From positions 3,899,001 through 3,963,000 of the forward strand of contig NZ_CP050137.1 in assembly GCF_013344685.1 (NCBI RefSeq): a stretch of 64,000 nt of DNA, written 5' to 3'. This document shows positions 1,131-32,361 of the stretch, in pieces. The translations under genes were made by a program, and so were the position numbers. The notes beneath the pieces are model-generated. The model did no database searches and was not told the DNA's origin. It was given only the letters and a program-made list of their open reading frames with translations. Positions within the stretch are counted from its first letter, which is position 1, and each line of letters begins with the position of its first letter. Source of the DNA: Sphingomonas sp. CL5.1 (GTDB lineage: Bacteria; Pseudomonadota; Alphaproteobacteria; Sphingomonadales; Sphingomonadaceae).

Positions 1131-1160
1131 TGCGTAACATTACTTCTCATACATTACGCA
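1131..1160. promoter_or_regulatory. Candidate operator, site A (30-bp dyad)
   Basis: Half-sites TGCGTAA (1131-1137) and TTACGCA (1154-1160) are exact inverted repeats separated by 16 bp. The site lies 50 bp upstream of the leftward acyl-CoA synthetase start. The same outer half-sites with the same end-to-end length occur at sites B and D, and one base longer at site C. Binding by a regulator is inferred. Confidence 0.6.
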
Positions 1161-1193
1161 TTTATGCAAGCGCCCCGCGACCGGCCGGCGGTT

Positions 1194-2066
1194 TCAATAA
1201 ACCGCCGCCGGATTCGGCGCGGGCGGGCTGCCCAGCATCTCGCGATAGGAGGGCCGCTCCTTGCCGCGATCGGTGACGCCAAGCTCGCGCGCGATCTCCG
1301 CCGCGATCAACGTGCGGCCGGAAAGCTCCGCCCCGCGCGGGTCGCTCGCCAGCGCGTATAGGATATGCGCGGTGAACTCCGGATTCTCGGCGGTGGCGAT
1401 GAAGCCCTCATATTGCTCCGGGTTGGTCTTGCTGGCGATCGCCGAACGCTCGGTGACGAGCGGCCCCATCCAGATCGAGACGGTGCGCACGCCGGTGCCG
1501 CGCAGATCATGCTCCATGTCGTGCGCGAACTTGTCGATCCCCGCCTTCTGCGCGCCATAGGCCGGGCCGTGCATGTAGCAGCTCGCGCCGAACGACGAGC
1601 CGAAGGCGATCAGCCCGCTTCCCTGCTCCACCATCATCCGCGCCGCGTGCCAGCTCGCGACATAGGCCGAGCGCAGCCCGACATCGAGGATGCGCGCCGC
1701 GTCCAGCTCCTTCTCCCAGAAGGGCTTCTTCTCGATGAGCTGATGGTGAATATAGGTGGCGTTGTTGACGAGGATATCGAGCCGCCCGGCCTCCGCCGCG
1801 ATCCGCGCGAACAACGCGGCGACCTGCGCGTCGTCGGCATGATCGCACATCACCGGCACGCCCTTGCCGCCCGCCTTCGTCACTTCCGCCGCCGTCTCGG
1901 CGACCGTGCCGGGCAGCACCGTGCCGTCCCAGCCGCGCGCGTCGCCCGGCGTCACAGTGCGGCCGGTGACGTAAACGGTCATGCCCTTCTCGCCCAGCCC
2001 GCGCGCGATCCCGCGCCCGGCCCCGCGACTGGCCCCGGTGACGAGCGCGATCTTCGGTTCCGTCAT
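1194..2066 (-). CDS. Short-chain dehydrogenase/reductase (290 aa)
   Basis: Classical-type SDR acting on NAD(P). It shows the N-terminal cofactor motif TGASRGAGRG, the NNAT segment (LVNNATYIH), a serine in FGSSFGAS and the catalytic YGAQK. The region between the Rossmann core and NNAT is longer than usual, resembling DHRS1-like SDRs. ATG at 2066 is preceded by GGGAGAG at good spacing. It lies 18 bp downstream of another SDR on the same strand, so the two probably form one leftward unit starting at site B. In this island the likely substrate is a steroid hydroxyl or keto group or a CoA-bound degradation intermediate, but nothing in the sequence fixes which. Confidence 0.85.
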   Translation of the reverse strand: MTEPKIALVTGASRGAGRGIARGLGEKGMTVYVTGRTVTPGDARGWDGTVLPGTVAETAAEVTKAGGKGVPVMCDHADDAQVAALFARIAAEAGRLDILVNNATYIHHQLIEKKPFWEKELDAARILDVGLRSAYVASWHAARMMVEQGSGLIAFGSSFGASCYMHGPAYGAQKAGIDKFAHDMEHDLRGTGVRTVSIWMGPLVTERSAIASKTNPEQYEGFIATAENPEFTAHILYALASDPRGAELSGRTLIAAEIARELGVTDRGKERPSYREMLGSPPAPNPAAVY

Positions 2067-2084
2067 GTCATTCTCTCCCTAAAT

Positions 2085-2840
2085 TCAGCCGAAATTGGCT
2101 TGCCCACCGTCGAGCGGCACCACCGCCCCCGTGAGATAGGCCATGTCGGACGAGCACAAGGCCACCACCGCGCGGCCGATATCCTCCTCCAGCCGGCCCA
2201 CACGGCCGAGCGGGATGGTGCGGAAGAACGCTTCCGCCTCCTCCGGGTTGTTCTTCATCCACCATTTGAGTCCGGGCGATTCGGCATGCGGCGCGATCGA
2301 CAGCGCACGGATGCCCTGCCGCCCCCATTCCGCCGCCGCCGCGCGGGTGAGCGCGTGGATTGCTTTCTTGACCGCCGCGTAAGCGCCATAGCCCGTCATG
2401 TCCCAGCGCACCGTGACGGAGGAGATGAGGTTGACGATGACCCCGCCGCCCCGCGCCACCAGATGCGGATGGACCAGCTTCATCAGCCGGTGCGCCGCGA
2501 GCGGGCCGGATTCGAAACCCGCGAGGAACGCCTCGTCGGTGACCTCCATCAGCTTGCCGTTGGGCACTTCCTGCGCATTGTTGACGAGGATGTCGATTCC
2601 GCCGAGTCGCGCCGCCGTCTCCTCCACGATCCGCGCGAGGTCGGCCGGCCGCTTCACGTCGCAGGCGAGCGGGATCGCGGCGCCGCCGCGCGCCGCGATC
2701 AGCGCGCAGGTGCGATCGAGCTTCTCGATCGTGCGGCCCGTGACGGCGACCGCCGCGCCCTCGCTCGCCAATGCCAGCGCAATGCCCTCACCGACGCCTT
2801 GCCCAGCGCCCGTGACCAGTGCGACCTTGCCGGTCATCAT
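2085..2840 (-). CDS. Short-chain dehydrogenase/reductase (251 aa)
   Basis: FabG/hydroxysteroid-dehydrogenase-like SDR. Motifs are TGAGQGVGEG (cofactor), ILVNNAQE, a serine in NLISSVTVRW, the YAAVKK catalytic pair and a C-terminal LTGAVVPLDGGQ. ATG at 2840 is chosen because GGAGAGGG lies about 9 nt upstream; an in-frame GTG at 2846 would add two residues. It is the first gene of the leftward SDR pair and faces the rightward SDR at 2954 across a shared intergenic region holding site B. It probably oxidises or reduces a steroid alcohol or ketone; position and stereochemistry cannot be read from sequence. Confidence 0.85.
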   Translation of the reverse strand: MMTGKVALVTGAGQGVGEGIALALASEGAAVAVTGRTIEKLDRTCALIAARGGAAIPLACDVKRPADLARIVEETAARLGGIDILVNNAQEVPNGKLMEVTDEAFLAGFESGPLAAHRLMKLVHPHLVARGGGVIVNLISSVTVRWDMTGYGAYAAVKKAIHALTRAAAAEWGRQGIRALSIAPHAESPGLKWWMKNNPEEAEAFFRTIPLGRVGRLEEDIGRAVVALCSSDMAYLTGAVVPLDGGQANFG

Positions 2841-2860
2841 CCCCACACACCCTCTCCATA

Positions 2861-2890
2861 TTCGTAATACAATCCACTATCACCTACGCA
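2861..2890. promoter_or_regulatory. Candidate operator, site B (30-bp dyad)
   Basis: Left half TTCGTA (2861-2866) and right half TACGCA (2885-2890) give the same 30-bp end-to-end geometry as sites A and D. The site sits in the 113-bp divergent region between the SDR starts at 2840 (left) and 2954 (right). A further partial half-site, TGCGTTA, lies at 2925-2931, and a TTGACA hexamer at 2896-2901. A shared operator for both directions is inferred. Confidence 0.55.
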
Positions 2891-2953
2891 CAACGTTGAC
2901 AATTTACCAAATATAGCCACAGAATGCGTTAAATTTATCGAGAGGATGCCTCA

Positions 2954-3724
2954 ATGAGCCAGGATTTCACCGGGCGCGTCGCGATCATCACGGGGGGCAG
3001 CGACGGGATCGGCCGCGCCACCGCCCGGCTGCTCGCGGAGCGGGGCGCCAGCGTCGTCATCTGCGCCCGCCGCCCCGAGAAACTGGAGGAAGCCCGCGCC
3101 GAGATCGCGAAGGTCGGCAAGGTCGAGGCGGTGCAGCTCGACGTGTCGGACGACGCGGCCTTCACGAAAGTGATCGAGGACGTCGCCGCGCGGCACGGCC
3201 GGCTCGACATGCTGGTGAACAACGCCATGTCGGTCCATTACGCGCCGATCGGCAAGCTGACGCTGGATCACTGGCGCAAGGATTTCGCGGTCAACGCCGA
3301 CGCCGTGTTCGTCGGCACCAAGGCGGCGATGAAGGTGATGATGGCGGCGGGTCGCGGCTCGATCGTCAACATCTCCTCCTCCTGCGGCATCCGCGCCGCG
3401 CCTTACATGGCGAGCTATTCCGCGTCCAAGGCGGCGCTGATCCAGTTCACCGCCGTCGCCGCGATGGAGGCGGCGCGCTCGGGCGTGCGCGTCAACGCGA
3501 TCGTGCCGGGGCAGGTGCAGACCCCGAGCACCGAGGATTTCGCGTCCAAGGCCCCCGACACCGCCGCCAAGACCGCCGACGCCATCCCGATGGGGCGCGG
3601 CGGCGAGCCGGACGAGCTGGCGGAGGCGATCATCTTCATGCTCTCCGACGCGGCGAGCTATATCACCGGCACCGCGCTTCCGGTCGACGGCGGCAAGGCG
3701 GCGCAACTCTATCTTCCTTCCTGA
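2954..3724 (+). CDS. Short-chain dehydrogenase/reductase (256 aa)
   Basis: Classical SDR with TGGSDGIGRA, LVNNAMS, serine in NISSSCG, catalytic YSASK and the C-terminal ITGTALPVDGG. ATG at 2954 has GAGG 8 nt upstream. It opens a three-gene rightward unit with the KstD-like flavoprotein (23 bp downstream) and another SDR. That linkage suggests it oxidises a steroid hydroxyl (for example at C3 or C17) to supply the 3-keto substrate of the dehydrogenase. This is inference from context; SDR sequence alone does not identify the substrate. Confidence 0.87.
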   Translation: MSQDFTGRVAIITGGSDGIGRATARLLAERGASVVICARRPEKLEEARAEIAKVGKVEAVQLDVSDDAAFTKVIEDVAARHGRLDMLVNNAMSVHYAPIGKLTLDHWRKDFAVNADAVFVGTKAAMKVMMAAGRGSIVNISSSCGIRAAPYMASYSASKAALIQFTAVAAMEAARSGVRVNAIVPGQVQTPSTEDFASKAPDTAAKTADAIPMGRGGEPDELAEAIIFMLSDAASYITGTALPVDGGKAAQLYLPS

Positions 3725-3747
3725 CCGAATCGAAAGGCGCGCGAAAA

Positions 3748-5433
3748 ATGGGGTGGGACAAGGAAGTCGACGTCCTGGTCGTCGGGTCCGGCGCGGGCGG
3801 GCTGCTTTCCGCATTGGTGGCGGCGGATGCCCATGCCGACGTGCTGGTGATCGAGAAGGAGCCGCTTTGGGGCGGCACCTCCGCCACTTCCGGCGCGGGC
3901 ATCTGGATTCCCGCGAGCGATCAGGCGGCGGCGGTCGGCTTCCATGACAAGGTGGAGGACGCCTTCGCCTATGTCCGCGCGCTGTCGGCGGACAATGTGC
4001 CGGACGCGAACATCCGCGCCTATGTCTCGAACGCCGCTCCGATGCTGCGCTGGCTGACGCAGCATACGCCGATCGAATACCACGCCTTTCCCTATCCCGA
4101 TTATCACGCCGAGAACCCCGGCGGCAGCCCGACCGGCTATCGCACGCACATGCCGCTGCCGATCGACGGGCGGCAGCTCGGCCGCGACGTGGAGACGTTG
4201 CGCTTCGCCTCTCCCGCCGCGAGCCTGTTCGGCTATCTCAACTGGCATTTCGACGAAACCTATATGCTGCTGTTCCGCGCGAAGGGCTGGCAGATGCATC
4301 TCGCGAAATCGCTCGCGCGCTACTGGTTCGACCTCCCCTTCCGCCTGCGCTCGCGCAAGGATCGGCGGCTGACGCTCGGCAACGCGCTGCTCGGCGGCCT
4401 GCGCATCGCGCTCAACAGGCAAAACGTGCCGGTGTGGCTGGAGACGCCGATGCGCGAGCTGGTCGAGAAGGACGGGCGCATCGCCGGCGTCGTCGTCGAG
4501 CATCGGGGGCGGCCGATGCGCATCGGCGCGCGGCGCGGCGTGGTGCTGGCGGCTGGCGGATTCGACAAGAACCAGGCGATGCGCGACGCCTATGCGCCAA
4601 GCTATCCGCGCGCGCTCTACAGCGGCGGCACCTCGGGCAATACCGGCGATTCGATCCGCGCCGGCATGGCGGTCGGCGCGGCGACGATGAACATGCAGTC
4701 CGCCTGGGCCGCGCCGGTTTTCTACGTGCCGGGCGAGGATCGCGGGCGGCTCTGCACGATCGAGCGTGCGCTGCCGGGCTGCATCATGGTCAACCAGTCG
4801 GGCGCGCGTTATCTCAACGAGGCGGCATCCTATCATATCGTCGGGCAGCAGATGGCGGCGCGGCAGCGCGAGCATCGGGACGCCGATCCGAGCTGGATGA
4901 TCTTCGACCATGATTTCCGCCATAAGTATCCGATGGGACCGCTGCTGCCTTTGGTGCCGGATGCGCTCCAGTCGAGGGGCGTGCGCAAGATCCTGCGCAA
5001 GGGCCGCACGATCGAGGAACTCGCCGCGAAGATCGGGGCGGACGCGGCTACGCTCGCCGCCACGGTCGCGCGCTTCAACGCTGGTGCCGTGAAGGGCGAG
5101 GACCCCGATTTCCATCGCGGCGAGGCGGCCTATGACAAGATGTACGGCGATCCGCGCGTCACGCCCAATCCGTCGCTCGCGCCGATGGTGAAAGGGCCGT
5201 TCTACGCCATGCCGATCCACCCCGGCGACATCGGCACCAACGGCGGCCTCGTCACCGACGAGCGCGCGCGGGTGATCGACGGCGCGGGCAAGCCGATCGC
5301 CGGCCTCTATGCGGTGGGCAACAACGCGGCCTCCGCGATGGGCGAGAGCTATCCGGGCGCGGGCGTTACGATCGGGCCGGCGCTGACTTTCGGCTATCTC
5401 GCCGCGCGCGACCTGACCGGCACCAACGAGTGA
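3748..5433 (+). CDS. kstD: 3-Ketosteroid delta1-dehydrogenase-like flavoprotein (561 aa)
   Basis: FAD-dependent dehydrogenase expected to introduce the C1-C2 double bond into 3-ketosteroids, the step before 9alpha-hydroxylation opens ring B. The N-terminal dinucleotide motif is VVGSGAGGLLSALVAADA, followed by GGTSATSGAGIWIP, typical of the KstD/flavocytochrome fold. Near the C-terminus ESYPGAGVTIGPALTFGY carries Y535 and G539, the Tyr-x3-Gly pair that in characterised KstD1 (Tyr487/Gly491) contacts the 3-keto group. Tyrosine-rich stretches PIEYHAFPY and PVFYVPG may supply the other active-site tyrosines. Length is normal or slightly long. It lies between two SDRs in one unit. Family is confident; delta1 specificity is probable. 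Confidence 0.82.
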   Translation: MGWDKEVDVLVVGSGAGGLLSALVAADAHADVLVIEKEPLWGGTSATSGAGIWIPASDQAAAVGFHDKVEDAFAYVRALSADNVPDANIRAYVSNAAPMLRWLTQHTPIEYHAFPYPDYHAENPGGSPTGYRTHMPLPIDGRQLGRDVETLRFASPAASLFGYLNWHFDETYMLLFRAKGWQMHLAKSLARYWFDLPFRLRSRKDRRLTLGNALLGGLRIALNRQNVPVWLETPMRELVEKDGRIAGVVVEHRGRPMRIGARRGVVLAAGGFDKNQAMRDAYAPSYPRALYSGGTSGNTGDSIRAGMAVGAATMNMQSAWAAPVFYVPGEDRGRLCTIERALPGCIMVNQSGARYLNEAASYHIVGQQMAARQREHRDADPSWMIFDHDFRHKYPMGPLLPLVPDALQSRGVRKILRKGRTIEELAAKIGADAATLAATVARFNAGAVKGEDPDFHRGEAAYDKMYGDPRVTPNPSLAPMVKGPFYAMPIHPGDIGTNGGLVTDERARVIDGAGKPIAGLYAVGNNAASAMGESYPGAGVTIGPALTFGYLAARDLTGTNE

Positions 5434-5444
5434 GGATATCAGGC

Positions 5445-6245
5445 ATGGGAAGGCTTGAGGGACGCGGCGCGATCGTCACCGGCGCGGGGCGCGGCATCGG
5501 CCGCGCGATCGTCGAGCGGCTGGCGGCGGAAGGCGCACGGGTCGCGGCGCTGGACCTCAAGGTGGAGGATTCGCCCGCCGCGCTCGCGATCCGCTGCGAC
5601 GTGAGCGACAGCACCTCCGTCGCCGCCGCCGTGCGTGAGGCGCGCGCGGCGTTCGGACGGCTCGACATCGCGGTCAGCAACGCCGGGATCGGCGCGGCCC
5701 CCGGCGACGGCAGCGAGCGATTCCACGCCGGCATGGGCGAGCGCAACGCGCAGATCGCGGCGGGCGAGACACCCACTGCCTTCGCCGACCAGCTCATCCA
5801 TATGGAGGACGCCGGCTGGCACGGGGTGATGGCGGTCAACCTCGACGGCGCGTTCTTCCTGGCGCGCGAGTTCGTCCGCGTACTGGCCGAGGACGGAAGC
5901 GGCGGCGCGATCGTCAACATCAGCTCGACCAGCGCGCAATCGGGCGAAGGCTCGCCGCATTATGTCGCGTCCAAGGCGGCGGTGATCGGGTTGACCCGGC
6001 AGCTTGCGAGGGAGCTCGCACCGCGCGGCATCCGCGTCAACGCCGTCGCGCCGGGGCCGACCGACACGCCGATCATGCAGGGCATACCGGCGGAGTGGAT
6101 CTCCTCGATGGAGGCCGCCGTGCCGCTCGGCCGCCTCGCCCGGCCGGAGGAGATCGCGGCGGCGGTCGCCTATCTCGCCAGCGACGACGCCAGCTTCACT
6201 ACCGGATCGGTGGTAGTGGCGAACGGCGGCAGCTATTTCTTCTAG
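5445..6245 (+). CDS. Short-chain dehydrogenase/reductase (266 aa)
   Basis: SDR with TGAGRGIGRA, a shortened segment to the acidic AALDLKV, SNAGIG, serine in NISSTSA, catalytic YVASK and FTTGSVVVANGG at the end. An insertion between SNAGIG and the catalytic serine (roughly residues 85-115, including GMGERNAQIAAGETP) is unusual for the family. ATG 5445 is preferred because GAGG lies 9 nt upstream; a GTG at 5430 overlapping the kstD stop is possible. It is the last gene of the rightward unit from site B and its end faces the leftward hydrolase at 6252 with 6 bp between stops. Confidence 0.83.
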   Translation: MGRLEGRGAIVTGAGRGIGRAIVERLAAEGARVAALDLKVEDSPAALAIRCDVSDSTSVAAAVREARAAFGRLDIAVSNAGIGAAPGDGSERFHAGMGERNAQIAAGETPTAFADQLIHMEDAGWHGVMAVNLDGAFFLAREFVRVLAEDGSGGAIVNISSTSAQSGEGSPHYVASKAAVIGLTRQLARELAPRGIRVNAVAPGPTDTPIMQGIPAEWISSMEAAVPLGRLARPEEIAAAVAYLASDDASFTTGSVVVANGGSYFF

Positions 6246-6251
6246 GACCGA

Positions 6252-7259
6252 TCAGGCAGCGACGAACCAGCACACGCCGTCCCGCGTCTCGCGCGTCGCG
6301 CGGCCGTCCAGCTCCAGCCGGCGCAGGTGCGACAGCGTCTCGCCGGTCGCCATGCTCACCATCTCCCGCACGATCGCACGGCGGAACAGCGCCGGGAAGC
6401 AATCGATCACGCGGCGCGGCGCGGCGAGCAGCGCGTGGAGCCGCTCCAGCCGGCGCTCGTACACCAGCGCCATCGCGTCCAGCCGCTCGTGCAATCCATA
6501 GAAAGGCTCGCCATGCCCCGGCAGCACGAGCAGGTCCGCATCGAGCAGCCGCAACCTCGCGATCGAGGCGAGCCAGTCGCCCAGCGGATCGCCCTCCGGC
6601 TCGGCCAGCGTGACCGACACGTTGGGGCTGACCCCCGGCAGCACCTGATCGCCCGCGATCAGCACCCGGCCGCACTCATCGAGCAGGCAGGCATGTTCGG
6701 GGCTGTGCCCGCTGCCGGTCACCACGCGCCACTCCGCGCCGTCCAGCGCGAGCCGGTCGCCGTCGGCGATGCGGCGGAAGCTTTGCGGCGGCGCGCCGAC
6801 CAGTTGTGCGTAGCCGCTCCACCCGCGAATCGATTGCGCGATCTGATCGTCGTCCCAGCCGGCCGCGCGCCAGTAATCGACGATCTCCGCCGGCACGCCG
6901 TCAGCGCCCGAGGCGAAGCGGTGCAGTTCCAGCCACTCGACCCGCGTCATCACCAGCGGCGCGCGATATTCGCGGCACAGCCAGCCGGCCGAACCGCTGT
7001 GATCGGGATGGTAATGCGTGCAGATCACCTGCGTCACCCGCTCCCCCGCGAGCGCCGCCGCCCAGCCGTCGCGGGTCGCGTCATTGTGGTAACCGGTATC
7101 GACGATCGCCACGCCGCCGTCGTCATCGACCAGCCAGCAATTCACGTCGCCGAGCGGACCGGGAACGGGCACGCTGCGCCAGCGGATGCCCGGCGCGACC
7201 GTGACCATCTCATGTGGCGCGGGGGTGCGGCCCGCGAAAGGCTGGCGGAGCCCAGTCAC
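6252..7259 (-). CDS. Metallo-beta-lactamase-fold hydrolase (335 aa)
   Basis: MBL-fold metallohydrolase of the glyoxalase II/LACTB2-like type. The zinc motif THYHPDHSG is followed by the histidine segment GSGHSPEHAC, the Asp-containing LIAGDQVLPG and the C-terminal LPGHGEPF. An alpha-helical tail with VREMVSMATGETLSHLRRL resembles the winged tail seen in many MBL hydrolases. The start is GTG 7259, whose GTGA overlaps the stop of the upstream flavoenzyme, so translation is coupled. It may hydrolyse a thioester, lactone or other ester made in the pathway. The tight linkage to a BaiCD/FadH-like enzyme argues for a related substrate, but no specific reaction can be assigned. Confidence 0.82.
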   Translation of the reverse strand: MTGLRQPFAGRTPAPHEMVTVAPGIRWRSVPVPGPLGDVNCWLVDDDGGVAIVDTGYHNDATRDGWAAALAGERVTQVICTHYHPDHSGSAGWLCREYRAPLVMTRVEWLELHRFASGADGVPAEIVDYWRAAGWDDDQIAQSIRGWSGYAQLVGAPPQSFRRIADGDRLALDGAEWRVVTGSGHSPEHACLLDECGRVLIAGDQVLPGVSPNVSVTLAEPEGDPLGDWLASIARLRLLDADLLVLPGHGEPFYGLHERLDAMALVYERRLERLHALLAAPRRVIDCFPALFRRAIVREMVSMATGETLSHLRRLELDGRATRETRDGVCWFVAA

Positions 7260-9412
7260 TCCGCCATCGCCACCGCCGGCTGCGGCGAGAGGATCGCCTC
7301 CACCGCCCCGGCCGCGCCGCGCATCGCGCCCTCGATATAGGAGATGCCGGTGCAATCGCCGATCGCATGGACCGCGAAGCCCTCGGCGCGCAACGCGTCG
7401 GCCAGCGCCTCGTCCGCCGTCGCGCCCTTGGCGACGATGACGTGATCGGCGCGCGGTCGTTGCGTCGTGCCGCCCGCGTCGGTGAAGGATACGAAACCCG
7501 GCTCGATGCGGATATCCGAGGCGGAGGGGAACAGCGCGACATTATGCTCGCGCAATTCGTCGAGCAGCCGCATCCGCCGCACCACCGTCAGCCCCGCGCC
7601 GAAGCGCGGCGCCTCGTCCACCACCGTCACCGTGCGCCCGCGTTCCAGCAGGAACTCCGCCAGCTCCAGCCCGACCAGCTCGCCGCCGACGATCACGACA
7701 TGATCGCCCAGCGGCATCCACTGGCGCGTCGCCTTGCGCACGAAATCGAGGTTGGCATTGAGGCCTGTCGCCGCGCCCAGCCTGGTCGCGAGTCGCGTGG
7801 CGAGGCTGGTCTTGCGCTTCAGCTCCTCGGAGCTCTCGCCGAGCATCATCTTGCGCATGTCGTCGCCCGACAGGACGTTGGGCAGGTCGCCGCCGGGGAT
7901 CAGCGGCATCCCGCGCCGCGCGCCGGTCGCGACGATCACCGCATCGGGCTTCAGCGAGCGCAGCAATTCGGGCGTCGCGGGCGTGTTGAGCCGCACCTCC
8001 GCGCCCGACGCCGCCACTTCCCGCTGGAGCCAGTCGAGCAGCCGCTCATTGGCCGGATAGGCGAGCGAGGCGAAGCGCAACGTGCCGCCGAGCCGCGCAC
8101 CCGCCTCCAGCAGGATCACCTCCTGCCCCTTCGCGCGCAGCCGCCGCGCCGCTTCCATCCCCGCCGGGCCGCCGCCGATCACCACCACGCGCTTCGGCGG
8201 CGCGACCGGAGCCTCGCGGCGGAGATATTCGAACCCCGTCTCCGGATTCACCGCGCAGCGCAGCGGATCGCAGACGTAGATCGCGCTGATGCAGGTGTAG
8301 CAATAGATGCAGGGCAACACGTCCTCGGGCCGCCCTGCCGCCAGCTTGTTCGGCAGGTGCGGATCGGCGAGCAGCTTGCGCCCCATCGACACGAAATCGA
8401 GCGAGCCGTCGGCGATCGCCGCATCCCCTACTTCAGGCTCGATCCGGCCGGAGGCGATGATCGGCACGTTCACCGCCGCCTTGATCCGCCGCGCGAAGGG
8501 GACGTTCAGCCCCGGCTCGTGCGGGGTGTGCGATCCCGAATGCAGCTTCGGCTGGCCGACGTCGTGATAAGCGGTGACGGTGATCGCATCGACCCCGGCG
8601 GCCTCCACCATCCGCGCCGTCTCGACCGCGTCCTCGATCGTGATGCCGCCATCCTTGCCGACCTCGCGCGAATCGAGCTTGCACCACACGGGGAAATCCG
8701 GCCCGACCGCCGCGCGCACCGCCGCGATCACCTCCAGCAGGAAGCGTACGCGATTCTCCAGCGGGCCGCCGTAATCGTCGGTGCGCTTGTTCGATTTGGG
8801 CGAGATGAAGGAGGAGATGAGGTAGCCGTGGCCGCCGTGGATCTCCACGCCGTCGAAGCCCGCGCGCTTCACCCGCTCCGCCGCCGCAGCGAACTGGCCG
8901 ACGACGTGGCGGATGTCCTCCACCGTCATCACCTTCAACTCGACGCCCTTGATGCGCCCGAACGGCGCGCGCATGATCTCCTCGATCAGGAAGGCGGCGG
9001 TGAAATCGCCACCCCGCGCGTCCGGCACCGAAGGCGTCCAGATCGGCCGCCCCGCGAGCAAATCCTCCATCGCCGCCGCGCCGCCGTGATGGAGCTGCGG
9101 CACGATCTTCGCGCCATGCGCATGCACCGCATCGACCAAGGCCGCGAGGCCGGGCAGGAAGCGATCGTCGGAAATCGCAATCTGCCCCTCCTGATTGGCG
9201 CCGACCGGCCATGCCACCCCCGCCACCCCGGTGATGATGAGGCCGACGCCGCCACGCGCCTGCTCCGCGTGATAGGCGATGATGCGTTCGCCGCATTGGC
9301 CGTCCTGCTCGGCGAGGCTCGCGCCCATCGCGGTGACGGCGATGCGGTTGCGCGTTTCCATCCGCCCGATGCGGCCGGGGGAAAGCAGATGCGGGAATTT
9401 CCTGACGGTCAT
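7256..9412 (-). CDS. NADH:flavin oxidoreductase, 2,4-dienoyl-CoA reductase/BaiCD type (718 aa)
   Basis: Two-part iron-sulfur flavoenzyme. Residues about 1-350 form an old-yellow-enzyme TIM barrel (GGVGLIITG, QLHHGG, GVEIHGGHGYLI). A cysteine cluster CIYCYTCISAIYVC then DPLRC follows (4Fe-4S). The C-terminal half is an FAD/NAD(P) module with VVIGGGPAGMEAARRL and VVIVGGELVGLELAEFL. This architecture is shared by FadH and by BaiCD/BaiH of bile-acid metabolism, which reduce or form conjugated C=C bonds in 3-oxo steroids. Here the second and third cysteines are separated by two residues rather than the three in FadH. A role in reducing or isomerising a steroid dienone or dienoyl-CoA is likely but inferred. 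The MBL hydrolase is translationally coupled downstream. Confidence 0.85.
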   Translation of the reverse strand: MTVRKFPHLLSPGRIGRMETRNRIAVTAMGASLAEQDGQCGERIIAYHAEQARGGVGLIITGVAGVAWPVGANQEGQIAISDDRFLPGLAALVDAVHAHGAKIVPQLHHGGAAAMEDLLAGRPIWTPSVPDARGGDFTAAFLIEEIMRAPFGRIKGVELKVMTVEDIRHVVGQFAAAAERVKRAGFDGVEIHGGHGYLISSFISPKSNKRTDDYGGPLENRVRFLLEVIAAVRAAVGPDFPVWCKLDSREVGKDGGITIEDAVETARMVEAAGVDAITVTAYHDVGQPKLHSGSHTPHEPGLNVPFARRIKAAVNVPIIASGRIEPEVGDAAIADGSLDFVSMGRKLLADPHLPNKLAAGRPEDVLPCIYCYTCISAIYVCDPLRCAVNPETGFEYLRREAPVAPPKRVVVIGGGPAGMEAARRLRAKGQEVILLEAGARLGGTLRFASLAYPANERLLDWLQREVAASGAEVRLNTPATPELLRSLKPDAVIVATGARRGMPLIPGGDLPNVLSGDDMRKMMLGESSEELKRKTSLATRLATRLGAATGLNANLDFVRKATRQWMPLGDHVVIVGGELVGLELAEFLLERGRTVTVVDEAPRFGAGLTVVRRMRLLDELREHNVALFPSASDIRIEPGFVSFTDAGGTTQRPRADHVIVAKGATADEALADALRAEGFAVHAIGDCTGISYIEGAMRGAAGAVEAILSPQPAVAMAE

Positions 9413-9428
9413 CGTGTTTCCTGTCCTC

Positions 9429-10052
9429 TCAATCCGCCCGCACCTTCACGCGCGGCGCGGCTTGCCCCCGGCGCATCGCGTTGAGGAAACCCTCCAGCGG
9501 TGCCGGCTCGGTGACCGGGCCGCCGTGGTCTCCCTCGCGCGCCCAATATTCGTCGTAGCTCGGAAAGAGCTTGTGGAAATTGCCCTCGACCCATTCCGCC
9601 CCCGGCCAGCGCATCTTGTTCGCGCCGACCGGCGGCTTGTTGAGATCGGTCGCGTACCAGTAGAGCGGCAGCCGGCGCGCGAAATGCCAGCGCCCCTCCG
9701 CGCGGACGTAATCGTCGACATACATCATCTGCATGATGACCCATTCGTCGCCCGTCTCATGCTCGTTCTTCGAATAGACCACGCCATGCGCGTGATCGGC
9801 ATCGTCGAACTCGATGACATGGCCGCCGATATGGTGCGAGGTGCCGGTGAAGGGCGAGCGCAAGGTGCGGTCCATATAGGCGCGCAGCGCGGCGCGCCCG
9901 CTCGCCTCCTTGCCGACGCGCACGTCCGCCGGGAACAGCGAGACCATCGCGTCCATGTCGCGCATGTCGAGCGCGAGCGCATATTTAGCGGGGAGTTGGC
10001 GAATCTGGTCCAGCGATTCGAGCCGATAGATGCGTGCTTCGAGATTCGACAA
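9429..10052 (-). CDS. SnoaL-like (NTF2-fold) protein (207 aa)
   Basis: Member of the SnoaL-like polyketide-cyclase/ketosteroid-isomerase superfamily, with the N-terminal helix pattern (IYRLESLDQIRQLPAKYALALDMRDMDAM) typical of the SnoaL_4 group. That group includes ring-hydroxylating dioxygenase beta-like, bile-acid 7alpha-dehydratase-like (BaiE, Hsh2) and ketosteroid isomerase-like members. It has no oxygenase alpha partner here. TTG at 10052 is the probable start, with GAGAGGAAA upstream. It opens the leftward unit continuing with the BaiCD/FadH-like flavoenzyme, 16 bp away. A steroid dehydratase or delta5-delta4 isomerase role is attractive from context but is inference. Confidence 0.78.
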   Translation of the reverse strand: MSNLEARIYRLESLDQIRQLPAKYALALDMRDMDAMVSLFPADVRVGKEASGRAALRAYMDRTLRSPFTGTSHHIGGHVIEFDDADHAHGVVYSKNEHETGDEWVIMQMMYVDDYVRAEGRWHFARRLPLYWYATDLNKPPVGANKMRWPGAEWVEGNFHKLFPSYDEYWAREGDHGGPVTEPAPLEGFLNAMRRGQAAPRVKVRAD

Positions 10053-10122
10053 GAGCGATTTCCTCTCCGTTTCACGGCATTTGAGCGCATATTGTTATTA
10101 GCTATCGCGTATTTTTCTATTA

Positions 10123-10155
10123 TTGCGTAGATTAATGCCGGTATAGTCTACGCAA
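10123..10155. promoter_or_regulatory. Candidate operator, site C (perfect 9-bp dyad)
   Basis: TTGCGTAGA (10123-10131) and TCTACGCAA (10147-10155) are perfect inverted repeats separated by 15 bp. The core TGCGTA to TACGCA distance is 31 bp, one longer than in the other three sites. A third, direct CGCGTA half-site lies 18 bp to the left (10106-10111). The site sits between the leftward SnoaL-like gene and the rightward SDR at 10175. This is the most symmetric of the four sites. Confidence 0.62.
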
Positions 10156-10174
10156 ATCAAGAGTGGAGGAGTGG

Positions 10175-10915
10175 ATGCGTTTTGCGGGCAAGAAGGTGCT
10201 GGTGACGGGCGCCGCATCGGGAATCGGGCGCGCGACGGCGCTACGTCTCGCGAGCGAAGGCGCGGAGCTGACGCTGGGCGACGTCAACGAGGCGGGCCTC
10301 GCCGACACCGCCGCAGTGATCGGGCGGCCGGTGCGCGTCCGCCCCTATGACGCGACAGACACGATATCCTGCCAGGCGCTGGTCGCGGCCGCAGCCGAAA
10401 ATGGGCTGGACGTGCTGTGCAACATCGGCGGGATGCTCGACTGGGGGCCGACGATAGATTTCGACGAAGCGCGATTCGAGCGCGTGCTGCGCGTCAACCT
10501 GTTCAGCGTCTATGTGCTGTGCCGCGCCGCGCTGCCGCACCTCGTCCGCTCGAAGGGGAATATCGTCAACATGGCGTCGGCCGCCGGGCTTTCCGGCGTC
10601 CCCTTCACCCTCGCCTATGCCGCATCCAAGCATGGCGTGGTGGGGATCACCAAGTCGCTCGCGGTGGAGTTCGCCGCGCGGGGCGTGCGCGTCAACGCGA
10701 TCTGCCCCGGACAGGTCAACACCGCCATGACGCGCACCCCGCCGCCCGAGGGCGACATCGACTGGCCGCTGATGATGCGCAACGCCCCCAAGCTGGAAGG
10801 CGGCGGCGCGGAGCCGGAGGATATCGCCGCCTCGGTCGCCTTCCTCGCCTCGGACGACGCGCGGAAGATCAGCGGCGCGGCGCTGCCGGTGGATTGCGCG
10901 CAGCTCGCGGGTTAG
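10175..10915 (+). CDS. Short-chain dehydrogenase/reductase (246 aa)
   Basis: SDR with TGAASGIGRA, an Asp in TLGDVNE consistent with NAD preference, CNIGG in place of the usual NNAG, serine in NMASAAG, catalytic YAASK and ISGAALPVDCA. ATG 10175 follows GGAGGA with only 4 nt spacing; a GTG at 10163 is a possible earlier start. It stands alone in its direction. Its TAG stop overlaps the TAA stop of the convergent flavoprotein gene, inside a small palindrome (GCGGG-ttag-CCCGC, 10907-10920). Probable hydroxysteroid dehydrogenase by context. Confidence 0.84.
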   Translation: MRFAGKKVLVTGAASGIGRATALRLASEGAELTLGDVNEAGLADTAAVIGRPVRVRPYDATDTISCQALVAAAAENGLDVLCNIGGMLDWGPTIDFDEARFERVLRVNLFSVYVLCRAALPHLVRSKGNIVNMASAAGLSGVPFTLAYAASKHGVVGITKSLAVEFAARGVRVNAICPGQVNTAMTRTPPPEGDIDWPLMMRNAPKLEGGGAEPEDIAASVAFLASDDARKISGAALPVDCAQLAG

Positions 10916-13195: not shown

Positions 13196-14229
13196 GCGCT
13201 CCCGACGCGCGCCTTGAGCATATCGAGAGCGACATCGGTGATCATGTCTTCCTGTCCGCCGACCATCTTGCGGCGTCCGAGCTCGACGAGGATGGCGCGG
13301 GTGTCGAGGCCATAGGTTTCGGCGGCCTTCTCGGCATGGCGCAGGAAGCTTGAGTAGACCCCCGCGTATCCAAGCGCGAGCGTCTCGCGATCGACGCGCA
13401 CCGGGCGGTCCTGCAACGGCCGCACGAGGTCCTCCGCCGCGTCCATCAGCGCCATCACGTCGCAGCCGTGGTTCCAGCCCTTGCGATCGGCGGCGGCGAC
13501 GAACACCTCCAGCGGCGCGTTGCCAGCGCCCGCGCCCATCCCGGCAAGACTGGCGTCGATGCGCACCGCCCCCTCCTGCGCCGCGACGATCGAGTTCGCC
13601 ACCCCGAGCGACAGGTTGTGGTGCGCGTGGATGCCGCGCTGCGTCTCCGGCCTGAGCACCTTGTCATAGGCGCGCAGCCGATCGCGCACCCCGTCCATGT
13701 CGAGCGCGCCCCCTGAATCGGTCACATAGACGCACTGCGCGCCGTAACTCTCCATCAGGGCTGCCTGCCGCGCGAGCGCCTCGGGTTCGATCATATGGCT
13801 CATCATCAGGAAGCCCGCGACATCCATGCCGAGATCGCGCGCGATGCCGATATGCTGCCTCGACACGTCCGCCTCGGTGCAATGCGTCGCCACCCTGACC
13901 GAGCGCACCCCGAGGTCACAGGCGCGGCGCAGTTCCTCCACCGTGCCGACCCCCGGCAGGATCAAGGTGGTCAGCACCGAACGCGTCAGCACGTCCGCGA
14001 CGGCCTCCAGCCATTCCCAGTCGGTATGCGCGCCGAAGCCATAGTTGAAGCTCGCGCCCGAGAGGCCGTCGCCATGCGCCACCTCGATCGCGTCCACCCC
14101 GGCGGCATCGAGCGCGCTCGCGATCGCGCGGACATGATCGAGCCCGTACATGTGGCGGATCGCGTGCATCCCGTCGCGCAGCGTCACGTCCTGGATGTAG
14201 AGCTTCTGCGTGTCGACGTCGAAGGTCAT
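13192..14229 (-). CDS. hsaF: 4-Hydroxy-2-oxoacid aldolase, HsaF/BphI type (345 aa)
   Basis: Class II pyruvate aldolase that splits 4-hydroxy-2-oxohexanoate (from the steroid ring-A fragment) into pyruvate and propanal. The N-terminal [13 protein letters not shown] contains the Arg-Asp catalytic/metal pair; the HAHHNLSLG segment supplies the metal-binding histidines; the C-terminal region includes [13 protein letters not shown], as in DmpG/BphI. The length is standard. ATG 14229 overlaps the stop of the aldehyde dehydrogenase (ATGA), consistent with the known complex that channels the aldehyde between the two enzymes. Family assignment is firm; HsaF rather than BphI naming rests on the operon. 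Confidence 0.92.
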
Positions 14230-15170
14230 GCCGCCGCCCTCCGCTCGAGGATGCGCCGGGCGAGCAACTCTCCGGTCGCCCTGGCCGCCGCCGTCATGAT
14301 GTCGAGGTTGCCCGAATAGCTCGGCAGATAATCGCCCGCCCCTTCCACCTCGAGGAAGATCGAGGTCCTGATCCCGGTGAACTCGCCCATGCCGGGGATC
14401 CTGAGGCGGTTGTTGTCGCCGTAGCGCTCGAACTGCACTTCCTGCTTCAGCCGATAGCCGGGGACATAGGCCTGCACCTTCGCCACCATCGCCTCGACCG
14501 AGGCGCGGATCGCCGCCTCGTCGCCGCCTTCGGACAGCGTGAACACCGTGTCGCGCATGATCATCGGCGGCTCGGCCGGGTTGAGGATGATGATCGCCTT
14601 GCCCTTCGCCGCCCCGCCGACTTCCTCGATCGCGCGCGCGGTGGTGCGGGTGAACTCGTCGATGTTGGCGCGCGTCCCCGGCCCCGCCGAGCGCGACGAC
14701 ACCGACGCCACGATCTCGGCGTAATGCACCCTCGCCACCTGGCTCACCGCCGCGACCATCGGGATCGTCGCCTGCCCGCCGCACGTCACCATGTTGACGT
14801 TGGGCTGGTCGAGATGCGCCTCCATGTTGACCGGCGGCACGGTGAACGGACCGATCGCCGCCGGGGTCAGGTCCACCACCTGGATGCCGTCCGCGCGCAG
14901 CGCCGCGTCATGCGCCTTGTGCGCATAAGCCGAGGTCGCGTCGAAGGCGATGCCGATCTCGCCATAGCAGGCGAGCTTCCGCAGCCCCTCGATCCCCTCG
15001 TGCGTCGTCGCCACCCCGCGCGCCCGCGCCATCGCCAGACCTTCCGACGCCGGATCGATTCCCACCACCGCCGCCAGTTCCATATGCTCCGACCCACGAA
15101 GCATCTTCACCATCAGGTCCGTCCCGATGTTCCCCGATCCAATGATCGCCGCCTTCACCTTGCACACCAC
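14226..15170 (-). CDS. hsaG: Acetaldehyde/propanal dehydrogenase (acylating), HsaG/BphJ type (314 aa)
   Basis: Converts the aldehyde released by the aldolase to acyl-CoA with NAD and CoA (propionyl-CoA in steroid breakdown). The Rossmann motif [14 protein letters not shown] starts the protein, and the catalytic cysteine lies in [12 protein letters not shown]. The C-terminal dimerisation region and length match DmpF/BphJ. The start is GTG 15170 (GTG 15167 is next in frame), with GGAG 6 nt upstream; the ATG at 15174 is out of frame. It is followed by the aldolase through an ATGA overlap and lies 9 bp after the hydratase. Confidence 0.92.
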
Positions 15171-15179
15171 TCATTACTC

Positions 15180-15956
15180 CTAGACGAAGCGCGCAGTGCA
15201 ACTGCCCACGCCCTCCAGCGTCATCTCGAACTGATCCCCGGCCACCGCCGGGGCCAGCGGCACCAGCGAGCCGGACAGGATCACGTCACCCGCCTCAAGC
15301 GTCACGCCGTAGCGCCCCAAAGTGTTGGCGAGCCATGCCACCGCCGCCGCCGGATCGCCCTGCACCGCATGACCATAGCCTTCGGACAGGGGCGCGCCGT
15401 TCTTCGTCACCGTCACATGCAGGGCGGGCATGTCATGTTCGCGCGGATCGGCCCGCGCCTCGCCCAGCACGAACACCCCGCAGGAGGCATTGTCCGCCAC
15501 CGTATCGACGATGCCGATCTTCCATTCGTCGATCCGGCTGTCGACGATCTCGAAACACGGCGCGATGCTTTCCGTCGCGGCCATCACGTCGGCCGCCGTC
15601 ACGCCGGGGCCTTTCAGCGCATCGCGCAGGATGAAGGCGATCTCCGCCTCCGCGCGCGGCTGGATCAGCCCGGTGGCGGCGATGTCGATATCGCCCTCGA
15701 TCCACATCCGATCGGTGAGGAAACCGAAGTCGGGCTGGTGGACACCCAGCATGTCCTGCACCGCCTTGCTGGTGACGCCGATCTTCTTGCCGATCACCCG
15801 TTCCCCCTCTCGCGTGCGGCGGGCGAGGAAATCGAGCGAGATGGCGTAGGCGTCGTCCACCGTCAGCGCCGGATCGCGGGCGATCAGCGGCGGCACCGTG
15901 CGGCGCGTGCGCAAGGCGGCGTGCAGCTCCGCGCCGTAGCGCTCAGCGATGCTCAT
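15180..15956 (-). CDS. hsaE: 2-Hydroxydienoate (2-keto-4-pentenoate) hydratase, HsaE type (258 aa)
   Basis: Hydrates the 2-hydroxydienoate product of ring-A meta-cleavage (2-hydroxyhexa-2,4-dienoate in steroid degraders) to 4-hydroxy-2-oxo acid. It belongs to the fumarylacetoacetate hydrolase/MhpD superfamily: EAEIAFILRD and the Glu in PCFEIVDSRI are metal-binding positions, with GKKIGVTSKAVQDMLG upstream and LSGSLVPLAP near the end. The length is typical. ATG 15956 overlaps the end of the hydrolase gene by 14 nt. Order hydrolase-hydratase-dehydrogenase-aldolase is the canonical meta-pathway order. Confidence 0.92.
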   Translation of the reverse strand: MSIAERYGAELHAALRTRRTVPPLIARDPALTVDDAYAISLDFLARRTREGERVIGKKIGVTSKAVQDMLGVHQPDFGFLTDRMWIEGDIDIAATGLIQPRAEAEIAFILRDALKGPGVTAADVMAATESIAPCFEIVDSRIDEWKIGIVDTVADNASCGVFVLGEARADPREHDMPALHVTVTKNGAPLSEGYGHAVQGDPAAAVAWLANTLGRYGVTLEAGDVILSGSLVPLAPAVAGDQFEMTLEGVGSCTARFV

Positions 15957-16761
15957 CGAGGAAGCCGATCGAATAGCGGTTGAACTCGCCCGCGCGCTCC
16001 ACCTGCACCCAATGGCCGACGCGGGTGAAGCTCATGAAGCGCACGTCCTCGCAAGCTTCGAGGAAATAGCGCGCGCCGCTCGCCGGGCAGAAATCGTCCT
16101 CCAGCCCCCAGAAGCCGAGGATCGGCTGCTTCACCTCGCCGAGCCGGGGCGCGAGGTTCGGCGTGCGCATCCGCACCAGCACGTCCTTCGGCTGGGTGCG
16201 GGCGACGGCATAGCGTTCCGCGACCAGCGCGTCGGTGACGGCCGACGCGTCATAGACGAGGTTGCAGATCAGCCGCCGCTGCTCCTCGATCGTGAAATCC
16301 GGGCCGCCGAAGTTCGACACCATCTTCGCAATGCCGGGCATGGCGAAATAGGTCTCGCGCTCCTCGATGCAGCCCGGCGCCATCAGCACGAGGCTGGAGA
16401 CGAATTCCGGGTGGTCCAGTGTCATCTGCAGGGCGACGCCGCCGCCCAGCGAGTTGCCGACCAGCGCCGCGCGGGTGATGCCGTGGGCGATCAGCGCGTC
16501 GTAGAGCGTGTCGGTGAAAAGCTGGAGCGTGTAATCCAGCCCCTCCGGCTTGGAGGACGCGCCATAGCCGATCATGTCGGGCAGGATCACGCGATAGCCC
16601 GCCGCGACGAAGGCGTCCGCGTTCTGCCGGAAGTTCGACGCGCCGGACGCCCCCGGCCCGCTGCCGTGGATGAACACCACCGCCGGGCCGCTGCCCATCT
16701 CGGCGATATGGATCTCATGGCCGCCGACGACGACATGCCGCTTGCTCACCAGCGCCTCCAT
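15943..16761 (-). CDS. hsaD: Meta-cleavage product hydrolase, HsaD/BphD type (272 aa)
   Basis: Alpha/beta hydrolase that cleaves the C-C bond of the meta-cleavage product (4,9-DSHA in steroid degradation), giving HIP/DOHNAA and a dienoate. Diagnostic features are the oxyanion segment HGSGPGASGASNF, nucleophile Ser104 in GNSLGGG, the acid in GLEDDFCPA and the histidine in VGHWVQVE. This set is shared by BphD, MhpC and HsaD. ATG 16761 overlaps the TGA of hsaA (TGATG), with in-frame GTG 16764 as an alternative. Naming as HsaD relies on the surrounding IpdAB/EchA20/IpdC genes. Confidence 0.9.
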   Translation of the reverse strand: MEALVSKRHVVVGGHEIHIAEMGSGPAVVFIHGSGPGASGASNFRQNADAFVAAGYRVILPDMIGYGASSKPEGLDYTLQLFTDTLYDALIAHGITRAALVGNSLGGGVALQMTLDHPEFVSSLVLMAPGCIEERETYFAMPGIAKMVSNFGGPDFTIEEQRRLICNLVYDASAVTDALVAERYAVARTQPKDVLVRMRTPNLAPRLGEVKQPILGFWGLEDDFCPASGARYFLEACEDVRFMSFTRVGHWVQVERAGEFNRYSIGFLDEHR

Positions 16762-17966
16762 CACAGGAACATCATCGCGGGCGGCTGGCCCATCAGGCCG
16801 CCGATCATGTCCGCCGTCCAGTTATTCGGATCGTTGGCGACATGCGCGCGCGCCGCGTTGAGATCGAGCCACGGCTGGACGATCGGGCTGGACATATAGA
16901 TCGCCCGCCCGCCGAGCAGCGGCAGAATATCCCCGATCAGCTCCGCACAGCGCCGCACCACGGTGGACGACTGGTATCGATAGGCCGATCTCTTCTCCAG
17001 CGGGATCGCCTCGCCGCGTTCGGCATAACCCATCAGGTCGTCGAAGGTCGCGCGCAGCGCCAGCTCCATCTCGCCGACCTGCGCATGCGCGCGCGCGATC
17101 GCGGCGTGAAGGATCGGGTCGGTCCTGGATGCCTTGCCGGTGTTGGTGGAGACGCGATCGGCGGCGATCGCCAGCGCCGCCTCGATCCCCGCCCGCGCGC
17201 CGCCCAGCGCCGCCGAGGAAACCGAGCGGACGAAGATCTGCGCCCACGGCAGGGTATAGAGGATGCCGTCATTCTCCTTCTGTCCCGGATTGCGGCAGTT
17301 GAAGCCGTCGACCGAGCGGTGCGTGCGATATTCCGGGACGAAGGCGCGCTCCACCACGATATCCTGGCTGCCCGTGCCCTGAAGGCCGAACACGTCCCAG
17401 TTGCGCTCGATCCGGTAATCCCCGCGCGGCAGCAGGAAGGTCCGCATGTCCGGCGGCCCGCCCGGCTCGCCGGGCGGCACCAGCGCGCCGAGCAGCACCC
17501 ATTGGCAATGCTCCGACCCGCTGGAGAAACCCCAACGCCCGGTCAGGTAGAAACCGCCGTCGGCATGCTCCACCTTGCCGACCGGCTGATAGGAGGAGGA
17601 GGCGAGCGCGCCGTCATCCTCGCCCCACACTTCCCGTTGCGCGCGATCGTCGAACAGCGCCAGCTCATAGGGATGGCAGCCGACCACGCCATAGACCCAG
17701 CCGGTCGACATGCAGCCTTCCGCCAGCAGCTTCTGCACGTCGAAGAAGGTGTTGGGGTGCATCTCATAGCCGCCCCAGCGCCTGGGCTGGAGGATGCGGA
17801 AGAACCCCGCCGCCCGCATCTCCGCGATCGTCTCGTCGGGCACCTTGCCCTCCGCGACGCATCGCTTCGCGCGCTCCTTGAGCGTCGGAATCATCGCACG
17901 CGCGCGCTCGACCAGCTCGGCCGCGGTGGGCTCGACCTGAGTCGTGAGCGGAACTGTGGCAGCCAT
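16761..17966 (-). CDS. hsaA: 3-HSA 4-hydroxylase oxygenase component, HsaA type (401 aa)
   Basis: Flavin-dependent monooxygenase of the acyl-CoA dehydrogenase fold (group D), which ortho-hydroxylates the phenolic 9,10-seco steroid before ring cleavage using FMNH2 from a reductase (HsaB). Features include ILQPRRWGGYEMHP, GWVYGVVGCHP, WGFSSGSEHCQW and the helix QSSTVVRRCAELIGDILPLLGGRAIY. These are characteristic of HsaA/HpaH-like oxygenases rather than true acyl-CoA dehydrogenases. ATG 17966 is preceded by a strong GGAGGGG. It is the first gene of the seven-gene leftward unit from site D. No HsaB reductase gene is visible in the window, so the flavin supply must be encoded elsewhere. Confidence 0.9.
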   Translation of the reverse strand: MAATVPLTTQVEPTAAELVERARAMIPTLKERAKRCVAEGKVPDETIAEMRAAGFFRILQPRRWGGYEMHPNTFFDVQKLLAEGCMSTGWVYGVVGCHPYELALFDDRAQREVWGEDDGALASSSYQPVGKVEHADGGFYLTGRWGFSSGSEHCQWVLLGALVPPGEPGGPPDMRTFLLPRGDYRIERNWDVFGLQGTGSQDIVVERAFVPEYRTHRSVDGFNCRNPGQKENDGILYTLPWAQIFVRSVSSAALGGARAGIEAALAIAADRVSTNTGKASRTDPILHAAIARAHAQVGEMELALRATFDDLMGYAERGEAIPLEKRSAYRYQSSTVVRRCAELIGDILPLLGGRAIYMSSPIVQPWLDLNAARAHVANDPNNWTADMIGGLMGQPPAMMFL

Positions 17967-18019
17967 TACAGCCCCTCCTTTATGCGGCCGGCGGTTATCA
18001 CCGGCTCAAAATCACAATC

Positions 18020-18049
18020 TTCGTAATTTCTCTTGCGCTATGATACGCA
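18020..18049. promoter_or_regulatory. Candidate operator, site D (30-bp dyad)
   Basis: Half-sites TTCGTA (18020-18025) and TACGCA (18044-18049) are spaced exactly as at sites A and B. An inner dyad, TTGCG (18033-18037) with CGCAA (18046-18050), overlaps it. The site lies in the 172-bp divergent region that must drive both the hsaA-type unit (7 genes left) and the ipd-type unit (17 genes right). Function inferred from recurrence and position. Confidence 0.58.
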
Positions 18050-18138
18050 AATCGTCAATAGAAAAGCGAGACCACGCGATTTGGTGATGGTTCAAGAACG
18101 ATTTCACACCCTTTATCGGGGAAGGCGGGAGGGAAGGC

Positions 18139-32356: not shown

Positions 32357-32361
32357 CGGCC

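Follow-up and report, generated by a model that had tools for sequence, protein, structure and literature searches.

A precisely spaced dyad at the promoters of a sphingomonad steroid island as the probable operator of a tandem Lrp/AsnC pair

The steroid-degradation island of Sphingomonas sp. CL5.1 carries a sharply defined inverted repeat, TKCGTA-N18-TACGMA, at its promoter regions, and we conclude that this dyad is very probably the operator through which a tandem pair of Lrp/AsnC-family proteins governs a steroid regulon. We analysed a window of 64,000 nucleotides (contig NZ_CP050137.1), the first position of which is position C1:3899001 of the 4.57-Mb genome; coordinates below 64,000 refer to this window. 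Computation places the sites, confines their strict form to one island, and finds them conserved in relatives and co-occurring with the pair; this correlation is what points to binding. In the original prediction, a single regulator, not yet known, was proposed to act on the entire pathway through four such operator sites, and both the island-only strict matches and the conserved orthologous promoters support that idea. All four sites were located in the window sequence exactly where they had been placed, with arms TKCGTA and TACGCA and a spacer of 18 bp in three sites and 19 bp in site C. Gene numbers (g22–g90), starts and operon heads are the gene calls of our own script.

1131–1160, TGCGTA-N18-TACGCA, 30 bp: site A, 51 bp upstream of g57 (minus strand, start 1080; head of an acyl-CoA ligase operon).
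2861–2890, TTCGTA-N18-TACGCA, 30 bp: site B, in the divergent gap between g59–g58 (minus strand) and g60–g62 (plus strand).
10124–10154, TGCGTA-N19-TACGCA, 31 bp: site C, in the divergent gap between g65–g63 (minus strand) and g66 (plus strand).
18020–18049, TTCGTA-N18-TACGCA, 30 bp: site D, in the divergent gap between g73–g67 (minus strand) and g74–g90 (plus strand).

Site C had been described as a perfect 9-bp dyad; comparison of both strands corrects this to 8 perfect base pairs, then one mismatch, then two more matching pairs. The 19-bp spacer, which is 18 bp at site C in relatives, recurs at L142:4409.

In its strict form the dyad is specific to the island. Within the window, the pattern TGCGTAN{17,20}TACGMA gave 6 strand-matches (4 places) and none in 100 dinucleotide shuffles. 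Across the whole genome it occurred at 7 places, all within C1:3872393–3917049 (44.7 kb, one island), and a reversed-pattern control gave 2 + 2 matches; the strict dyad is thus not scattered through unrelated DNA. Three of the seven places (3872393, 3887333 and 3893257) lie left of the window, which begins at 3899001. A position weight matrix (PWM), run over 124 kb round the island, added two weaker dyads at 3865292 and 3881469 that scored 31–33, whereas five shuffles yielded nothing that reached 13; one other extra place scored just 12. Because both weaker dyads lie in divergent island gaps and have AT-rich spacers in addition to these scores, we retained them as sites, so that the likely total for this genome is nine (seven strict and two weaker). 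Both were also among the places found when two mismatches were allowed. As a way of finding more sites, two-mismatch scanning was rejected as unspecific, with 43 places in the genome against 110 for the reversed control and 3 matches in the window against a shuffle mean of 2.9; PWM scoring covered the 124 kb named above, and a further 35 such places lie outside the island.

Conservation was followed through 397 genomes, a sample from the family. A search of these for TGCGTAN{16,21}TACGMA found clusters of dyads across many genera among the matches listed. In a set of 108 places from those matches, which leaves out some of them (for example those in G001, G249, G314 and G377 and a second one in G009), the spacer was 18 bp at 69 places, with a mean spacer GC content of 0.33, whereas each other spacing from 16 to 21 bp accounted for 4–11 places with a mean spacer GC content of 0.50–0.62. 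The same preference appeared when half-site spacings of 0–60 bp were counted in 704 kb of our own island and its relatives (loci selected for a dyad or a pair, the window itself lying outside the count): 43 distinct sequences had the strict half-sites at a spacing of 18, and the only other spacings found were 40 and 58, once each. Orthologous clusters in other genera keep the dyad at the B and D promoters and partly at C. Site B stands beside the g59 ortholog in all six relatives for which the gap was fetched (G050, G228, G185, G133, G061 and G033), all four relatives compared at site D (G050, G228, G061 and G033) keep it in the gap that separates g73 from g74, and site C stands beside the g66 ortholog in G050, G228 and G185.

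Among the 69 island genes g22–g90, helix–turn–helix families were hit only by g28, g29, g48 and g49, all of them Lrp/AsnC. In that scan six genes were examined with NCBIfam only, one without its first 33 residues and g57 in two pieces, and g35 and g77 matched no family. The four candidate genes form two tandem pairs in the same island, both to the left of the window:

Genome 3888425–3887356: g49/g48, tandem pair, 11 kb left of the window.
Genome 3869859–3868961 (L018:9961–10859), minus strand: g29/g28, tandem pair.

All four proteins combine an N-terminal AsnC-type helix–turn–helix (PF13404 and PF13412) with a C-terminal Lrp/AsnC ligand-binding domain (PF01037), each above the curated cut-off, and all four score far below the curated cut-offs of the NCBIfam equivalogs Lrp, AsnC, LysM, LrpA and ChrS. 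A g49/g48-like pair was present in the cluster of each of the seven relatives first fetched for their dyads, with identities of 68–78% for the g49-like and 62–73% for the g48-like protein. In the surveyed loci a g48- or g28-like gene adjoins a g49- or g29-like gene, except in L162 and L164, where only the g48-like gene was found. The recognition helix of g48, VTEGTVRGRIKRL, is nearly invariant among g48 orthologs and aligns with the DNA-binding helix of the Lrp-type protein PH1519/FL11 (DNA complex PDB 2e1c). When exact 6-mer dyads with AT-rich spacers were sought de novo at 21 loci with VTEGTV-type pairs, TGCGTA-N18 was the commonest, at 10 loci, and the runner-up occurred at 3.

The distribution of dyad and protein across the 397 genomes links the two further. 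For this test, in which genomes were not selected for their dyads, we counted matches to the strict pattern with a spacing of 18, a symmetric site counting twice, and called a g48-like protein at E ≤ 1.4e-19 (next best 6.5e-15). The protein was found in 46 genomes and at least one strict match in 59. Of these 46, 36 had at least three strand-matches and 41 at least one, whereas not one of the 351 genomes lacking the protein reached three (Fisher 2e-42 for three or more, kinship ignored). Steroid catabolism alone does not account for this pattern. The CoA-transferase gene g76, which we take to be ipdA (IpdA-type CoA-transferase), served as a steroid-pathway marker and was found in 58 genomes, 45 with and 13 without the g48-like protein; the site was present in 41 of the 45 (36 with at least three matches) and in 0 of the 13 (Fisher 8e-10, again ignoring kinship). 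Because the ipdA genomes split in this way, the site follows the regulator pair and not steroid catabolism as such. The 13 ipdA genomes that lack the pair (for example G098, G160, G209, G282 and G313) hold steroid-type clusters that must use another regulator.

Several observations weigh against assigning the dyad to the pair. Shared descent influences every count in the genome profile. Of the 351 genomes without a g48-like protein, 18 hold one or two stray strand-matches, and 10 of the 46 genomes with it have fewer than three, with none in G057, G084, G224, G253 and G362. Two Novosphingobium loci with VTEGTV pairs, those of ES2-1 (L118) and THN1 (L172), have no strict dyad in 40 kb. Site C was not found beside g66 in G033, and no strict equivalent of site A stands in the corresponding gap of the four relatives checked; there the g58 and g57 orthologs are joined (gap 5–10 bp), and upstream of g58 lies a dyad with one altered arm in G050 and G228 (by PWM) and in G033, and a dyad with a 19-bp spacer in G185. 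With two pairs in one island, either of them could be the reader of a given site. Finally, the architecture is unusual for the family: known Lrp dimers are reported to bind imperfect palindromes of 13–17 bp, and natural sites to be degenerate (PMC2995911), whereas the dyad here is a sharp 30 bp, with two arms of 6–9 bp set 18 bp apart.

Two side observations touch these exceptions. G057 does have matches when spacings of 16–21 are allowed, and the orthologous pair of L118, on plasmid p1 of Novosphingobium sp. ES2-1, stands without obvious steroid genes in 40 kb.

The single regulator of the original prediction may in fact be two related pairs. The g49/g48 and g29/g28 proteins represent two subfamilies, and relatives of both occur near TKCGTA-N18/19-TACGMA dyads; it is because both pairs lie in the island and relatives of either adjoin the same half-sites that two pairs have to be considered. 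The recognition helix varies among loci. At the five loci with a VNEG helix (L119, L131, L133, L136 and L171, from one or two close genera), a variant dyad, TKCGGA-N18-TCCGMA, was found in four and in none of the other surveyed loci, although this sequence is common background genome-wide. The comparison is no more than suggestive of half-sites that change along with the helix (VTEG or VNEG). TKCGTA dyads also occur at two of the five VNEG loci (L131 and L171), and we therefore set aside a clean helix-to-half-site code. The variant dyads stand beside the pairs of L119, L131, L133 and L171, which include tomato-associated Sphingobium plasmids. A class of VTEGTI-type pairs without a dyad was likewise dropped: one cluster with such a pair, that of Sphingobium herbicidovorans pMSHV (L173), has one strict dyad, at 4656. 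Its tandem Lrp/AsnC pair lies beside a CoA-transferase, a VOC dioxygenase, a flavin reductase and dmpG, and the locus appears to be one more steroid-type cluster controlled in this way.

The sites hold fixed positions relative to promoter-like elements, of which three are placed in the window:

2896–2901, plus strand: −35-like box TTGACA, 5 bp past the edge of site B, towards g60.
18053–18058, minus strand: −35-like box TTGACG, pointing into site D, towards g73.
2925–2929, plus strand: possible third half-site TGCGT, downstream of the −35 box at offset 34.

TTGAC lies at an identical offset in all seven aligned B regions. Across 63 non-redundant sites (126 flanks), two registers stood out. In 10 flanks, of which seven are B orthologs, the box faced away from the dyad at a distance of exactly 5 bp; in 14 flanks it faced inwards at exactly 4 bp, and these comprise four D orthologs and, for the most part, sites beside g29/g28-type pairs. 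Over all offsets the totals were 16 (away) and 19 (in), against a shuffle mean of 6.0 and a maximum of 15. In the pointing-away register the dyad would sit upstream of the −35 box; in the pointing-in register it would lie over the −10 region. The third arm, TGCGT, was found at offset 33 in 8 of the 10 pointing-away flanks (34 in site B) and in 12 of all 126 flanks, mostly at g60-type promoters, and 200 shuffles gave at most 3 at any offset. At offset 33, the centres of the first and third arms are 63 bp apart. The −35 boxes are clear at the two registers and the −10 boxes are not, and a firm promoter call was set aside.

These features suggest how the switch might work. The reader would be g49/g48, possibly together with or replaced by the related g29/g28, and the regulon would span at least the 3865–3932 kb island. 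Recognition helices of the pair would take each symmetric arm, AT[AT]T[GT]CGTA; the exact 18–19 bp spacing, together with the additional TGCGT arm that some promoters have, suggests that the DNA may carry two or more dimers. Such a multi-dimer Lrp complex would cover or flank the promoter, and a single complex in a divergent gap could serve both operons. Judging from the family, a steroid or a CoA-linked breakdown product in the C-terminal ligand domains may change the complex and turn the regulon on. For the sign of control we favour ligand-lifted repression at most promoters, because many sites stand downstream of the −35 box and ahead of the start codon; activation and dual control are the alternatives. 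A bolder version, to which we give somewhat less than even chances, is an obligate two-protein, steroid-responsive Lrp/AsnC regulator: a mixed complex would occupy arms 24 bp apart centre to centre and the third arm at 63 bp (six helical turns), the promoter would be wrapped, the two pairs would share an operator code and changes in the helix would shift it.

The strongest competitor keeps the pair and changes its sign, making it mainly an activator that occupies sites upstream of the −35 box and, with steroid bound, recruits polymerase. Activation would also suit the g60 promoter, because site B lies just upstream of its −35 box; the 10 pointing-away flanks share this register, and by our own reading their likely −10 regions look poor. 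The 14 other flanks with the pointing-in box, in which the site would cover the −10 region, speak for repression, as do the many sites that end 15–30 bp ahead of start codons, and we consider a mainly activating pair a serious but less likely alternative.

A different kind of alternative is that some regulator whose gene lies elsewhere in the genome reads the sites and that the Lrp pairs merely travel with steroid clusters. Our search for other regulators covered the island genes g22–g90 only, the assignment of the site to the pair is correlative, and g17, which its sequence marks as a putative AraC-type gene, is found some 6 kb to the left of the first weak site. A mere travelling companion would not readily explain the absence of the site from all ipdA genomes without the pair, and in several relatives the pair and the sites occur together although the gene order is quite different; we regard this alternative as improbable. 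Far less probable still is that the dyad serves as an attenuator or terminator of transcription or represents a repeat element: it is indeed an intergenic inverted repeat, but has arms of 6–8 bp round an 18-bp loop, lies mostly in divergent gaps, keeps its spacing exact while the spacer varies, and tracks a regulator protein. Chance resemblance in AT-rich intergenic DNA, which the AT-rich spacers might suggest, is already contradicted by the empty shuffles, the confinement of all seven genomic matches to one island and the conserved orthologous promoters, and can practically be dismissed.

Our gene calls agree with the 34 genes (g57–g90) and the seven transcription-unit heads opening onto four gaps (g57, g59/g60, g65/g66 and g73/g74) that had been described. 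As the extent of the island, 34 genes holds for the window, from its left edge to 33903, but the island continues past that edge. NCBIfam and Pfam searches of the window part found FadD3-type, HsaA-like, KstD-like, extradiol dioxygenase, DmpG-type aldolase, acetaldehyde dehydrogenase, CoA-transferase, acyl-CoA dehydrogenase, thiolase and MaoC domains. Such an enzyme set is in keeping with steroid degradation at the 9,10-seco stage and in the ring steps that follow. The genes nearest the sites, together with the last gene of the g74 operon, are as follows:

1–1080, minus strand: g57, acyl-CoA ligase (AMP-binding), running on left of the window; head of operon g57–g53.
1194–2066, minus strand: g58, short-chain dehydrogenase/reductase (SDR).
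2085–2846, minus strand: g59, SDR, operon head on site B.
2954–3724, plus strand: g60, SDR, operon head on site B.
3748–5433, plus strand: g61, 3-ketosteroid dehydrogenase-like; best NCBIfam match 3-ketosteroid-delta-1-dehydrogenase, below cut-off.
7256–9412, minus strand: g64, Old Yellow Enzyme (OYE)-type flavoenzyme; best NCBIfam match BaiCD, below cut-off.
9429–10052, minus strand: g65, SnoaL-like, head on site C.
10163–10915, plus strand: g66, SDR, head on site C; probable start ATG 10175, as in relatives.
16761–17966, minus strand: g73, HsaA-like monooxygenase (NCBIfam HsaA, below cut-off), head on site D.
18139–18906, plus strand: g74, SDR, head on site D.
18911–19828, plus strand: g75, extradiol dioxygenase, HsaC type by position.
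19828–20706, plus strand: g76, CoA-transferase, the steroid-pathway marker used above.
32353–33903, plus strand: g90, FadD3-family acyl-CoA ligase, above the NCBIfam cut-off; last gene of the g74 operon.

Beyond the left edge of the window, the island encodes a major facilitator superfamily (MFS) transporter, an amidase, CoA ligases, two Rieske proteins that carry a KshA-type domain and a TonB receptor that has a dyad 64 bp upstream. It also encodes a RibBA-type fusion (DHBP synthase and GTP cyclohydrolase II; L019:4773–5903, that is genome 3883773–3884903, minus strand), which belongs to a run that follows a strict site and also includes an OYE flavoenzyme and a Rieske protein of the KshA type, an arrangement hinting that the steroid regulon extends to flavin supply. 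The proposed operator defines regulon members beyond the obvious operons, namely TonB receptors, KshA-type Rieske enzymes and the RibBA-type fusion. The dyad also provides a search key for sphingomonad steroid clusters and possibly the basis of a steroid sensor. According to a review (PMC8399759), little is known about how Proteobacteria regulate the breakdown of steroids and bile acids; a precise operator with a named candidate pair turns it into a direct bench question.

Shared palindromes already control steroid catabolism pathway-wide in actinobacteria, where KstR and KstR2, both of the TetR family, bind short palindromic operators. The dyad resembles these in its pathway-wide reach, but no TetR domain was found among the island genes scanned here. 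Our literature searches found no description of a TKCGTA-N18-TACGMA operator; the proposed regulator thus belongs to a known family, and its operator architecture and regulon were not found described in the literature searched. Closer in taxonomy is EdcR of Caenibius tardaugens, a TetR-family, estrogen-dependent repressor of the edc cluster whose palindromic operator, TnnCnnTACnAnTnGTAnnGnnA, overlaps the −10 box (PMC8700777). It too is a sphingomonad steroid regulator with a palindromic operator; fold, arms and spacing differ from those proposed here, and comparison by eye of the dyad arms with the printed motif led us to reject an EdcR-type (TetR) operator. The nearest likeness is in the bile-salt cluster of Sphingobium sp. 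Chol11, where a 2026 paper (PMC12882949) notes contiguous Lrp/AsnC genes, NCHOL11_RS15865 and NCHOL11_RS15860. From that description this is very probably the same kind of pair, tandem Lrp/AsnC genes in a sphingomonad steroid cluster; the accessible text frames the pair by amino acid metabolism and proposes no operator, regulon or test. With FL11 (PH1519), LysM, Ss-LrpB and Escherichia coli Lrp, the candidate proteins share the AsnC-type helix–turn–helix, the Lrp/AsnC ligand domain and the position of the recognition helix. Known Lrp proteins are reported to sense mostly amino acids (PMC2995911), whereas the tandem pair here presumably responds to a steroid-derived ligand; should the pair prove to be the reader, it would extend the range of DNA sites and ligands known for Lrp/AsnC proteins. 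And if the two-protein version were true, the master switch of sphingomonad steroid and bile-acid degradation would be unlike the TetR switches of other steroid degraders.

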